Of a stretch of DNA of 40,308 bases, positions 32,995 to 36,618 are shown piece by piece. The number at the start of each line of letters is the position of its first letter. Within the stretch, counting starts at the first letter, position 1. A program made the translations under genes and the position numbers. The notes beneath the pieces were generated by a model. That model ran no database searches, was not told where the DNA came from, and saw nothing but the letters and a program-made list of their open reading frames with translations. This DNA comes from Planctomycetota bacterium (GTDB lineage Bacteria > Planctomycetota > Brocadiia > Brocadiales > Bathyanammoxibiaceae): assembly GCA_023261505.1 (NCBI GenBank), contig JAHFOV010000016.1, positions 1-40,308 on the forward strand. Direction: 5' to 3'.

Positions 32995-35394
32995 TCAAAT
33001 CTTCCACTCCAAAGACTTTTGCCCACACCTGCAACTGATGTGCCCGGTAGCTTGATTATAATTCTCCGTATTCACATAGGTCGCGCAGGGAGTGTTAGGA
33101 CACTTAAATAAACTTTCAAGCTTGTCTATATCTTCCAGCATTACATCAATGTCTCCCGACGATACTTCTGATGGATTATCATGGGAAAGCCAGTTAGCCA
33201 AGAAACTTGTTGTCTCAAGATTTTTAAATAGGGGCTCGTCCCTCAAACTGGGAGAATGTCTTTTTATAGCTCCCTTTAATTCACTCCATAACTCTCTAGG
33301 TGTGCGGGCCGCATTAGTATCGTTGGGTCGGTATTGTACTCTAACTGGTAAAACCGTACAAAGTTCCTTGAGAATGTTTTCTAACAAAATCCTAATATCA
33401 TTGCCTACTGGCATACTCTGAGAACGCTTTTGCATTATTAACTGTCTTTGGTCAAGTAAGGAAGGTTTTAATTGAACACCGTTGTCAAAATCCCAAGTTA
33501 CTTCGTTAATTAACCAGCCAAAGCTTGGAAGTTCTCTTTTTATAATGTCAAACCAAAACCTTTCGTGAGTAAGAAGTATAATTTGATAATCAGTAAAATG
33601 TTGTTTCAATAGCCTTAACAGTCTTATCCTATGGTCTGCATCAAAACTTGTTACAATGTCATCGAGAATAAAGAATTTGTTATGTTTATTGAAAAGTTTT
33701 ACCGAAGAAAGAAAAAGTGCAATAGCCAAGCTATTAAGATGGGATTCGCTAAGATATTTTTGCGGTGGACGAGCATTGTGTCCATGAAATCTATATTTGA
33801 ACTCAACACCACCATTGACTATCTCAAGCCTTAATGTATCCACATTATCGTGTGGATGAAGAAATAGGTAGAAGTTACTTATATCTTCTGACATAAGATC
33901 AAGAGCGTCTTGCAACGCAGAGTTTTGAACACTAATGAATTCTTCTTCTAACTTGGCAAGTGAATGAATTTGTTTTTCATAAACATCCTTTTCTAAAGAT
34001 AAACAATTAGTCTCTACAAATAAGTTACTCGACTTCATAAGTTTTTCTAATAGCCTTATTAAATCTTCTTCTTTCTCTGTTAAGCCTAATGCTTTACGCT
34101 GTCCTATAACAGAGTCTATTTCACCCCGCATTGAGCTTTCATCAATCCATTTTTGATATTCATACATCCTCTCCTCTGATACAGTTTCAAACTTGCTTAT
34201 TGTGTCTTCTATACGTTTAAGCCATTCATTAACTTTATCTACAAATGTCTCTAGGCGCTGACGAAATCCAGTGGACACAATTTCTGGTAGAGATACAATC
34301 TGTCCTGCATTACTTAAAGACTCCCTGAAGTTTGTTACAAGATCCTTTTTCACTTTTTCAATTTCTGCACGCTCAGTTCTGACAGAGGAAAGTAGGTTAA
34401 TTCTCTTTTCCACATCGGCTTTGAGTAAGTCTATGTCAACCTCGGAAAAACAGAAAGGGCATTTATCTTCTTCTACATGGCCTTCGACAATAAGCCGCAA
34501 ACCCTTCGACAGAAATTCTTCCACGTTAAGCATTCGAATGCTTTCACGTTTTTTTGTCAATGCACAATATCGGCTGAAGAATTCATCTGCCTTCTTACAT
34601 CCGGTTGAATAACTCTCTTTAAGTTTTTGGAGTTTTTCAATGAGTTCATCCATTTTTAATCTTTTCTTTAGCTTGTCTTCACCGGCCCTCTCCTGTAATA
34701 AGGACAAGCACTTTTTTAAACTATGTTCATCCTTTACCTCAATATCAAGGCTGTTTGGTTTTATAAGTGTATTAACCTTCTGATAATATTCTGCCCTGTT
34801 GGAAGGTGTGGTACCCAGTAGCTGTAGTAAATCACCTCTTTTGGCATCCAGCAAACGGACTATAGGGGATACTTCCTTTTTTAACGAACTTTTTACCTTT
34901 CTGATTGTAGATTCAAAAATATCGAGTTCTTCATACCCAATAATCTTTTCAATTTCCTTTCTTTTCTCTGATTTTATGTCATCGATAAAGGTGTGCATAT
35001 ACTTATTCCGCAGAATAAGCCTTTCCTTTGCACAATCATCCAAATATTTTTTGAAGTTTTCATCCGTATTAGAGTATTCTTCTCCGAGGTTGTCATCTAT
35101 CGATTTTGACGACGATAACCCGGTCTCATTAATTTCGACAACCACCGAAGCGCGCTCTTTGGGGCTTAAGTTCAAGTTTCTTAGGGCTTCTTTTTTACAA
35201 CCTTCTCTCCATAGATGCTCTATCTTATCGTAGAAGAACCACTCAAGAGCGTCCGTTATAGTGCTTTTGCCACTTGCGTTATCTCCAAAGATTGCTATGC
35301 TTCTACAAGTATTCATAAGGTCTAAAACAAAAGGAAATCTTGCACCTCGGAAACCAGCTATTTCAAGCTTCTTTATTTTCTTTATGTTTGCCAA
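32995..35394 (-). CDS. SMC/Rad50-like ATPase with zinc-hook motif, probable defence protein
   Basis: A 799-residue protein. Walker A GDNASGKST at 37-45; coiled-coil arms at about 110-300 and 320-490, meeting at KCPFC (Cys312, Cys315), the CxxC zinc hook of Rad50-type dimers. The ABC signature is YLSESHLNSLAIA (547-559), Walker B FFILDDIVTSFD (574-585, Asp in place of the usual catalytic Glu) and the H-loop LLTHE (607-611). A C-terminal helical domain (665-760) contains NWLSHD and resembles HEPN-like/DUF4145 folds but lacks the RxxxxH triad. A final zinc ribbon uses Cys765, Cys770, Cys788 and Cys790. It starts with TTG after AGGGTAG and overlaps a small gene by 32 bases. It is AT-rich relative to neighbours. 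Confidence 0.85.
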   Translation of the reverse strand: MANIKKIKKLEIAGFRGARFPFVLDLMNTCRSIAIFGDNASGKSTITDALEWFFYDKIEHLWREGCKKEALRNLNLSPKERASVVVEINETGLSSSKSIDDNLGEEYSNTDENFKKYLDDCAKERLILRNKYMHTFIDDIKSEKRKEIEKIIGYEELDIFESTIRKVKSSLKKEVSPIVRLLDAKRGDLLQLLGTTPSNRAEYYQKVNTLIKPNSLDIEVKDEHSLKKCLSLLQERAGEDKLKKRLKMDELIEKLQKLKESYSTGCKKADEFFSRYCALTKKRESIRMLNVEEFLSKGLRLIVEGHVEEDKCPFCFSEVDIDLLKADVEKRINLLSSVRTERAEIEKVKKDLVTNFRESLSNAGQIVSLPEIVSTGFRQRLETFVDKVNEWLKRIEDTISKFETVSEERMYEYQKWIDESSMRGEIDSVIGQRKALGLTEKEEDLIRLLEKLMKSSNLFVETNCLSLEKDVYEKQIHSLAKLEEEFISVQNSALQDALDLMSEDISNFYLFLHPHDNVDTLRLEIVNGGVEFKYRFHGHNARPPQKYLSESHLNSLAIALFLSSVKLFNKHNKFFILDDIVTSFDADHRIRLLRLLKQHFTDYQIILLTHERFWFDIIKRELPSFGWLINEVTWDFDNGVQLKPSLLDQRQLIMQKRSQSMPVGNDIRILLENILKELCTVLPVRVQYRPNDTNAARTPRELWSELKGAIKRHSPSLRDEPLFKNLETTSFLANWLSHDNPSEVSSGDIDVMLEDIDKLESLFKCPNTPCATYVNTENYNQATGHISCRCGQKSLEWKI

Positions 35395-35572
35395 GCGTTT
35401 CTACCCTTAGTTTCACAAGTTCTTGTTCTAACCTGGTGTCTGTTAATGGCCTATTATTTTGGCGGATTTGCTTGATTACTTTAATTATTTCAGTTAAGTT
35501 CTTGTCTTGTTCCATTTTTGTTAAGAATTCATCTATTATTTCAGAGCCGTATTTAATTCTTTTTTGTTCCAA
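35363..35572 (-). CDS. Small hypothetical protein coupled to the ATPase gene
   Basis: A 69-residue helical, charged protein (EIIDEFLTKMEQDKNLTEII; KIRQNNRP). No family recognised. The start is TTG 35572, with TAGGAG at an 8-base distance. Its last codons overlap the ATPase start by 32 bases, which argues for one operon. It could be the small accessory or antitoxin-like member of the ATPase/nuclease module. Confidence 0.6.
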   Translation of the reverse strand: MEQKRIKYGSEIIDEFLTKMEQDKNLTEIIKVIKQIRQNNRPLTDTRLEQELVKLRVETLGKHKENKEA

Positions 35573-35587
35573 CTTTTAGACTCCTAA

Positions 35588-36061
35588 ATGAAACCTGTAC
35601 AACAACAACCTAGCATTACGATAAGCTTCTTTGACAAGTACGACTTTAACGAGACGAACATCGCACTTGTTCAAGGATATACTGGACTTTATTTCATGTA
35701 TCTGAACGACTTACATATACCATATCCATTTTTAAAATCAAGGCTTATCTATATAGGAATGAGTGAATCTAAGCAGAACAGCATTGGTAATAGGTTAAGA
35801 GACCATAGGTCGGGACAATCAGGAAATTTTGCTATAGCCAACTACACTAAGACCTATCAAGCCAAATTCACTTATTTGAGTTTTGAAATACTAAAACATT
35901 TAGGAACGGATAACGTGATGGAGTTAGAGAGCTTCTTTTTAAGGGACTTTTTACAGGTACATGGGGCATGCCCAATTTGCAACAACCAAGTAGGAACGGC
36001 ATTTCCTGAAAGCAATTTGTTTAAAAAGAATATTAATATCCAATGGGATTTTTTCGTTTGA
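35588..36061 (+). CDS. GIY-YIG family nuclease, divergent partner of the ATPase
   Basis: A 157-residue protein with the GIY-YIG core: GLYFMYL (Gly33-Tyr35), LIYIGMS (Tyr55-Gly57), NRLRDH (69-73) and the catalytic-type Glu in VMELESFFLRDF (112 or 114), followed by the Zn-like CPICN (128-132). GIY-YIG enzymes cut DNA as single-domain nucleases. No DNA-binding domain is attached. ATG 35588 directly follows a TAA; no ribosome site is visible and the next in-frame Met is inside the catalytic fold. The start lies 15 bases from the start of the small gene on the other strand. Confidence 0.8.
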   Translation: MKPVQQQPSITISFFDKYDFNETNIALVQGYTGLYFMYLNDLHIPYPFLKSRLIYIGMSESKQNSIGNRLRDHRSGQSGNFAIANYTKTYQAKFTYLSFEILKHLGTDNVMELESFFLRDFLQVHGACPICNNQVGTAFPESNLFKKNINIQWDFFV

Positions 36062-36101: not shown

Positions 36102-36251
36102 CTAGGCTAAGAAATCAATATGGTCAAGTCTTTCACATGCCCTTTTCTTCTCGCCCTTATACTCATTGAAGCTTAATGGTCTAATATCGCTTAGTTCAGT
36201 AACGTAGCCTTCCATCTCGGCGAGTTTGGTCAATATCTTTTCCTTATCCAC
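36102..36251 (-). pseudogene. hepT: Truncated HepT-like (HEPN) toxin
   Basis: A 49-codon frame from GTG 36251 (VDKEKILTKLAEMEGYVTEL, then KRACERLDH) matches the first helices of HepT, the HEPN RNase partner of MntA, but stops at 36102 before the catalytic RxxxxH. The GTG overlaps the mntA stop by 8 bases, the usual coupling. The sequence after the stop does not resume HepT in any frame. The break is 40 bases from the end of the GIY-YIG gene, so the ATPase/nuclease module may have been inserted here. Confidence 0.65.
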
Positions 36252-36618
36252 GTGCCACTGTGTCCAGATAGGTTGAGAAAGCCTTCTTGTATAGCTCAAA
36301 GTCTTTTAGCGTATCAATAGCAATCTGGTAAAGGAAATCTTCGTCTTTACTGTGAAGTATCTTCCCCTCCTGGAGTATTCTTATCCTAATGTATAAAGGT
36401 AGTGCCTGGAAGACCTGTACGTCAATGGTATCGCTCAGGGTGGAGTACTCTAGCCTTTTTCTGAAAGATTCCCTTTCATCCCTAAGCACAATGCATACGT
36501 CAATGTCTGAGGTGGGCCTTGCGTAGCCTCTGGCATGACTGCCAAAGAGGAGGACGGCGATAATCTCTTTATCCTTTTTTGCGAGGGAGAGGAGTTTGTC
36601 AAGGTGACTATTTCTCAT
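36244..36618 (-). CDS. mntA: MntA-type nucleotidyltransferase antitoxin
   Basis: A 124-residue minimal nucleotidyltransferase. FGSHARGYARPTSDIDVCIV (26-43) gives the GSx(9-10)DxD motif with Asp38 and Asp40. In HepT/MntA pairs MntA AMPylates and silences the HEPN RNase. The partner here is cut short, so the antitoxin may be an orphan. No strong ribosome site is seen before ATG 36618. Confidence 0.88.
   Translation of the reverse strand: MRNSHLDKLLSLAKKDKEIIAVLLFGSHARGYARPTSDIDVCIVLRDERESFRKRLEYSTLSDTIDVQVFQALPLYIRIRILQEGKILHSKDEDFLYQIAIDTLKDFELYKKAFSTYLDTVARG

Follow-up and report, generated by a model that had tools for sequence, protein, structure and literature searches.

Do three adjoining genes in a Planctomycetota genome, which encode a zinc-hook SMC/Rad50-like ABC ATPase, a small middle component (MC) and a single-domain GIY-YIG nuclease, belong to one functional system, and if so, what does that system do? 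The genes lie at 32995–36061 in a 40,308-nt stretch of DNA (GenBank assembly GCA_023261505.1, contig JAHFOV010000016.1), the whole of which we refer to as the window, and a preliminary description of the locus had proposed that they might form an undescribed defense module. We found that GIY-YIG, MC and ATPase are indeed one conserved, co-inherited module, and we consider it probable that this module works as a nuclease system of three components gated by its ABC ATPase, with anti-phage or anti-plasmid defense as its most likely role.

The ATPase gene (32995–35394, minus strand; 799 aa, TTG start) carries a C-terminal HEPN-like domain and zinc ribbon, and overlaps the MC gene (35363–35572, minus strand; 69 aa, TTG start) by exactly 32 bp. 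The GIY-YIG gene (35588–36061, plus strand; 157 aa, ATG start) is divergent, its start codon being separated from that of MC by a 15-bp spacer (35573–35587). The GIY-YIG alignment was used to scan 84,980 species genomes and yielded 114 relatives, from which the best 80 loci were retained, and in all 80 the nuclease gene is adjoined by the ATPase gene, the MC gene or both. MC and ATPase were each called in 79 of these loci, and the single locus lacking a called ATPase is at a contig end. Among 147 related genomes, seven carry GIY-YIG, the window's own included, each with the ATPase adjacent (7/7), and the related carriers in the same order are Brocadia and Scalindua records. Pairwise distances of GIY-YIG and ATPase were also correlated (r = 0.85; 0 of 2000 permutations as high). 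Chance does not explain the association, as each relative locus that was found has the genes together; a survey of co-occurrence had been suggested in the preliminary description, and no lack of conserved co-occurrence was seen. Carriers are spread over more than 15 phyla (assigned by record title), including Bacteroidota, Planctomycetota, Nitrospirota, Pseudomonadota, Cloacimonadota, Elusimicrobiota, Chloroflexota and Calditrichota; many are metagenome-assembled genomes, and cultured carriers include Ruegeria, Pedobacter, Flavobacterium and Draconibacterium. No natural MC/ATPase or MC/GIY-YIG fusions were found among the homologues. At five loci (L040, L043, L049, L079, and L088) the ATPase occupies two reading frames, reflecting either decay or assembly errors.

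The window ATPase matched Pfam SMC_N (E = 2.6e-13) and AAA_23 (3.5e-8), and among solved structures only SMC/Rad50 heads were matched. Conservation was computed over 65 homologous sequences, and the Walker A, signature, Walker B, D-loop, H-loop (H610) and hook positions were conserved at 94% or more, apart from a variable third hook residue. The Walker A motif, G37-DNASGK-S44 (35263–35286, minus strand), has G37, G42 and K43 at 100% and S44 at 97%; the zinc hook between the coiled coils, C312-P-F-C315 (34450–34461, minus strand), has C312, P313 and C315 at 100%; and the signature-like motif L548-S-E-S-H552 (33739–33753, minus strand) has S549-E550-S551 at 100%. A C-terminal zinc ribbon formed by C765, C770, C788, and C790 (33025–33102, minus strand) is nearly as constant (C765 97%, C770 98%, C788 94%). 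The Walker B motif (residues 574–579, with LDD at 577–579; 33658–33675, minus strand) ends in D578-D579, both 100% conserved, rather than showing an E-to-Q change. The preliminary description had named the Walker A, signature, Walker B and H-loop motifs, the CPFC hook and the zinc ribbon, and all are borne out by this conservation. Because RloC-family proteins share the D-D Walker B and the ATPase activity of RloC depends on DNA (PMC3874168), ATP hydrolysis by the window ATPase is expected.

AlphaFold2 modeled the C-terminal 168 residues of the ATPase as a helical bundle plus the zinc ribbon (mean predicted local distance difference test score, pLDDT, of 85). The HEPN-like domain, R668-x3-E672 ... 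N734-x2-S737-H738 (33115–33432, minus strand), has R668, E672, and S737 conserved at 100%, H738 at 98% and N734 at 95%. The catalytic triad of RloC is Arg-x3-Glu-x36-52-His, often with Ser-His, and replacing any one of its residues abolished activity (PMC2610378). The same motif occurs in the RloC-family proteins L131 and L158–L160; in RloC-family relatives of the same phylum the sequence is N-x2-RRVLE ... VNTFSHND, and in the window it is GN-x2-R-x2-LE ... ANWLSHDN. In 12 divergent members of the ATPase family, which also keep the zinc hook, E672, N734, and H738 are invariant and an arginine stands at position 668 (nine proteins) or 733 (three proteins: L134, L033, and L138), never at both. 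An arginine at 733 corresponds to the canonical HEPN motif RN(x3-4)H; in the window, residue 668 is encoded at 33391–33393 and residue 733 at 33196–33198. This pattern, a stronger hint than the profile comparison given below, suggests a single putative RNase site whose arginine has shifted position. The ATPase probably carries a predicted RloC-type HEPN RNase domain and is then probably more than a sensor; given this resemblance of its C-terminus, GIY-YIG may not be the sole effector.

The window GIY-YIG protein itself matched Pfam weakly (E = 0.09), and at E ≤ 0.01 its homologues matched GIY_YIG_2 in 26 of 47 cases and GIY-YIG in 8 of 47. Y35 (of GxY), Y55-I56-G57, R69, H73, E114 and N132 are 100% conserved in 74 sequences; judged from sequence, the protein is a GIY-YIG nuclease, with GxY, YIG, and the catalytic Arg, Glu, and Asn all present. 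Its earlier identification as a single-domain GIY-YIG nuclease therefore rests on both the invariant catalytic residues and the homologue Pfam matches. No match to the window protein was found among viral contigs, PHROG families or PADLOC models, nor did its profile match any solved structure. A phage origin was considered and set aside, GIY-YIG having no homologues in viral contigs and the ATPase none in phage records. MC ranges from 58 to 81 residues across loci and was modeled by AlphaFold2 in the window as three helices (pLDDT 83). It belongs to no curated family, a fold search against the PDB gave no useful match, and 52 MCs searched against Pfam matched no ABC-3C family; its gene position suggests an adaptor.

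More distant relatives of the ATPase are found with other partners. An HNH protein adjoins MC and ATPase at L134, an Eco57I-type modification enzyme does so at L031, and at L033 the pair is accompanied by an SNF2 helicase and a DNA methylase, with SNF2/methylase partners also at L138. Because partners vary in this way among distant relatives, ATPase and MC appear to be a core that is joined by nucleases or restriction-modification proteins. As a separate observation, this wider ATPase(+MC) family (L134, L031, L033, L138, L036, and L137) resembles further uncatalogued defense operons.

The arrangement and surroundings of the module point to mobility. The order GIY-YIG > MC > ATPase on one strand is found in 67 loci, with GIY-YIG divergent in the remaining 13 and in the window, and the tree of the ATPase shows a single change of layout. 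The window falls within the divergent-layout clade with Alphaproteobacteria (99% support in the Shimodaira–Hasegawa-like approximate likelihood ratio test, SH-aLRT), apart from the Brocadia and Scalindua copies, on a long branch whose exact position is less sure; as its clade is shared with Alphaproteobacteria and not with copies from its own order, the window module was probably acquired horizontally. In the 15-bp spacer of the window, the sequence AGGAG on the minus strand (35581–35585) lies 8 nt ahead of the MC start codon, so that the spacer is essentially the MC ribosome-binding site; promoters would therefore lie inside the opposite gene and the two transcripts would overlap. No ribosome-binding site comparable to this AGGAG could be read upstream of the GIY-YIG gene, and a promoter and terminator scan gave signals no better than shuffles. 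The GC content of the module is 36.5–37%, vs. 41–54% in the rest of the window.

Outside the module, at its edge, lies a truncated hepT toxin gene (36102–36299, minus strand), beside an intact mntA antitoxin gene (36244–36618, minus strand; NCBIfam MntA_antitoxin, 61.9 bits at a cut-off of 60). Compared with the intact HepT of the relative G007, the window gene is 86% identical over codons 1–42, after which homology stops at 36126, and no later part of HepT occurs in the window. G007 retains both mntA and hepT intact (L150:662–1445), next to the AMP-ligase gene that is also found in the window, and has no module there; comparison of the two sequences places the module where G007 keeps the end of hepT. 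On an Aliiroseovarius plasmid (L117:4238–9286), a divergent module adjoins recombinase, Mu-type transposase, TniB, and TniQ genes (Tn5053/Tn402-type), which suggests that it is transposon cargo. The hepT insertion site and these transposon-gene neighbors together indicate that the module family is mobile. Identical ATPase proteins in three Pedobacter species (L098, L100, and L101) also suggest recent transfer. With respect to the preliminary description, the coordinates, the 32-base overlap and the 15-base divergent gap proved correct to the base, as confirmed by open reading frame (ORF) calls, and both the AT-richness and the truncated toxin gene, now recognized as hepT, were confirmed.

None of PADLOC, Pfam, NCBIfam, and PHROGs assigned the three-gene set to a known system, in agreement with the earlier view that a GIY-YIG effector with this ATPase is not of a recognized type. 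Searches of the open-access literature turned up no account of an operon that combines GIY-YIG, MC and a zinc-hook ATPase, although the 2020 ABC-ATPase survey that defined ABC-3C may mention one. The operon logic of the module recalls Lamassu/ABC-3C and its ATPase recalls RloC, yet the module departs from each at a defining point. Septu likewise pairs an ABC ATPase (PtuA) with a small HNH nuclease (PtuB), and a relative of the module ATPase adjoins an HNH protein (L134, above); however, the PtuA match (4.3e-5) was weak and covered the Walker A end, the window has no HNH, its ATPase having GIY-YIG and MC as neighbors, and the MC and HEPN-like domain are additional, so the locus was not assigned to Septu. 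Dnd ABC ATPase-DndE cores also combine an ABC ATPase with a small protein and sometimes a URI/GIY-YIG nuclease (PMC10853773), but no Dnd genes adjoin the module and MC matches no library family. A GIY-YIG domain is shared with the anti-phage systems PD-T4-3 and PD-lambda-1 (PMC10952713), but PD-T4-3 is a single-gene system (PMC12409345) without an ATPase-MC operon, and the window nuclease lacks a PADLOC match. Menshen was rejected as a match because its description combines DUF262 with a predicted OLD nuclease.

It is unlikely, in our estimation, that the module is a Lamassu/ABC-3C subtype in which GIY-YIG would be an LmuA-type effector, MC would be LmuC and the ATPase LmuB. The gene order is identical (a single operon running from the effector through a small middle protein to a zinc-hook ATPase), effectors are exchangeable in both, and LmuB models gave the best PADLOC scores for the ATPases (1.6e-22 for the window and 2e-27 for L037). 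These matches may not be specific, however, because the LmuB model PDLC03865 also matches four control genomes that are not notable as Lamassu hosts (E. coli, Thermotoga, Methanocaldococcus, and Sulfolobus), presumably through ordinary Rad50/SbcC. LmuB is also reported to be ∼650 aa long with an E-to-Q change in Walker B, and LmuA to have a C-terminal docking domain (PMC10586767), whereas the 799-aa module ATPase has a zinc ribbon, a HEPN-like domain and a D-D pair that is invariant in all 65 sequences, and the module nuclease is a bare domain. Neither GIY-YIG nor MC matches any Lamassu or ABC-3C model or known middle-component family. A filing under Lamassu on the LmuB match was therefore rejected, given the control-genome matches and the unchanged Walker B. 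Membership in RloC was rejected in turn because the window ATPase has no match to Pfam AAA_13 (the RloC/PrrC family) at E ≤ 1, where other proteins in the order reach 1e-149. RloC nevertheless offers a second model for the module, as a translation-disabling RNase in which the HEPN domain would be the effector and MC and GIY-YIG would regulate it, for instance by making activating DNA ends. The two ATPases share a Rad50-like head split by a coiled coil with a CxxC hook, the D-D Walker B, a C-terminal R-x3-E...N-x2-S-H motif (more widely spaced in the module) and a similar length (about 750–800 aa), RloC is activated by linear DNA and by inducers of DNA breaks (PMC3874168), and the persistence of MC and ATPase without GIY-YIG in one close relative (below) would fit. 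Against it, beyond the missing AAA_13 match, stand the extra zinc ribbon and the fact that RloC stands alone while the module ATPase has MC and, in this group, the GIY-YIG nuclease, whose invariant catalytic residues indicate that its cutting matters. We regard this version as improbable.

Rated slightly above that, though distinctly unlikely as well, is the idea of an accessory complex for DNA repair or for the processing of DNA ends, without a defense role, similar to SbcCD/Rad50-Mre11 with an SLX1/UvrC-like GIY-YIG nuclease. Such a complex would account for the pairing of a zinc-hook Rad50/SMC-like ATPase with a nuclease fold that is also found in repair enzymes, and for a PHROG match to SbcC (4.2e-13). 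The patchy distribution, horizontal transfer and transposon-linked plasmid copy are unlike housekeeping repair, however, as are the RNase-like C-terminal site and the presence of HNH or restriction-modification proteins as alternative partners. The mobility of the module and its patchy occurrence point toward defense, as do its exchangeable nucleases and the RNase-like site.

Several observations weigh against a defense system with an RNase-bearing ATPase as we propose it. A fold search against the PDB placed HepT (HEPN) chains among the best matches to the C-terminal region, none of them significant (no E < 0.001); alignment of this region to an RloC-type profile gave an hhalign probability of 7% (score 21.9 vs. 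a shuffle maximum of 13.2); and the E672-to-H738 spacing in the window is x65, vs. x36-52 in RloC. The HEPN-like region noted in the preliminary description is thus backed by motif conservation, with fold matches below significance. The close relative G034 (L029) retains MC and ATPase without GIY-YIG, so GIY-YIG is not strictly needed to keep the pair. Module neighbors include OLD/Gabija/PARIS-type ATPases, type III methylases, PDC-S01, Shedu and one AAA_13 (RloC/PrrC-family) protein, but 125 module-near ORFs matched 186 PADLOC models and 120 control ORFs, taken from 24 of the same genomes, matched 149. Enrichment in defense islands is therefore not convincingly shown by this measure and not decisive with regard to repair; of the defense-island setting originally described, the adjoining truncated toxin gene and the AT-rich composition stand.

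For the gated nuclease system that we favor, assembly into a complex, its trigger, the two cleavage activities and the defense role itself are our inferences, and we envisage the following sequence. Two ATPase protomers would pair via the zinc hook, and by analogy with Rad50 and RloC the paired ATPase would sense abnormal DNA, most likely the ends of incoming DNA or its replication intermediates. ATP-driven head engagement would then be relayed through MC to the GIY-YIG enzyme, which would be inactive until this relay and then cleave DNA. The same movement would probably expose the HEPN-like domain of the ATPase, a predicted RloC-type RNase that would halt translation. More tentatively, and with considerable doubt, the module may represent an undescribed, widespread dual-effector immune family, in which a DNA-end-sensing, HEPN-bearing ATPase would drive an interchangeable stand-alone DNase via an adaptor of ∼60 residues, with GIY-YIG in this role at the window and HNH or restriction-modification proteins in other members, combining DNA destruction with translation arrest.

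Because the module is present in cultured strains of Ruegeria, Pedobacter, Flavobacterium and Draconibacterium, it is directly testable. If it is a defense system, GIY-YIG would be added to the nuclease types that Rad50-like immune ATPases drive, and the sensor itself would appear to bear an RNase, with the DNase encoded by a gene of its own. The family would then bridge RloC-type translation disablers and Lamassu/ABC-3C effector operons, which are usually studied apart.

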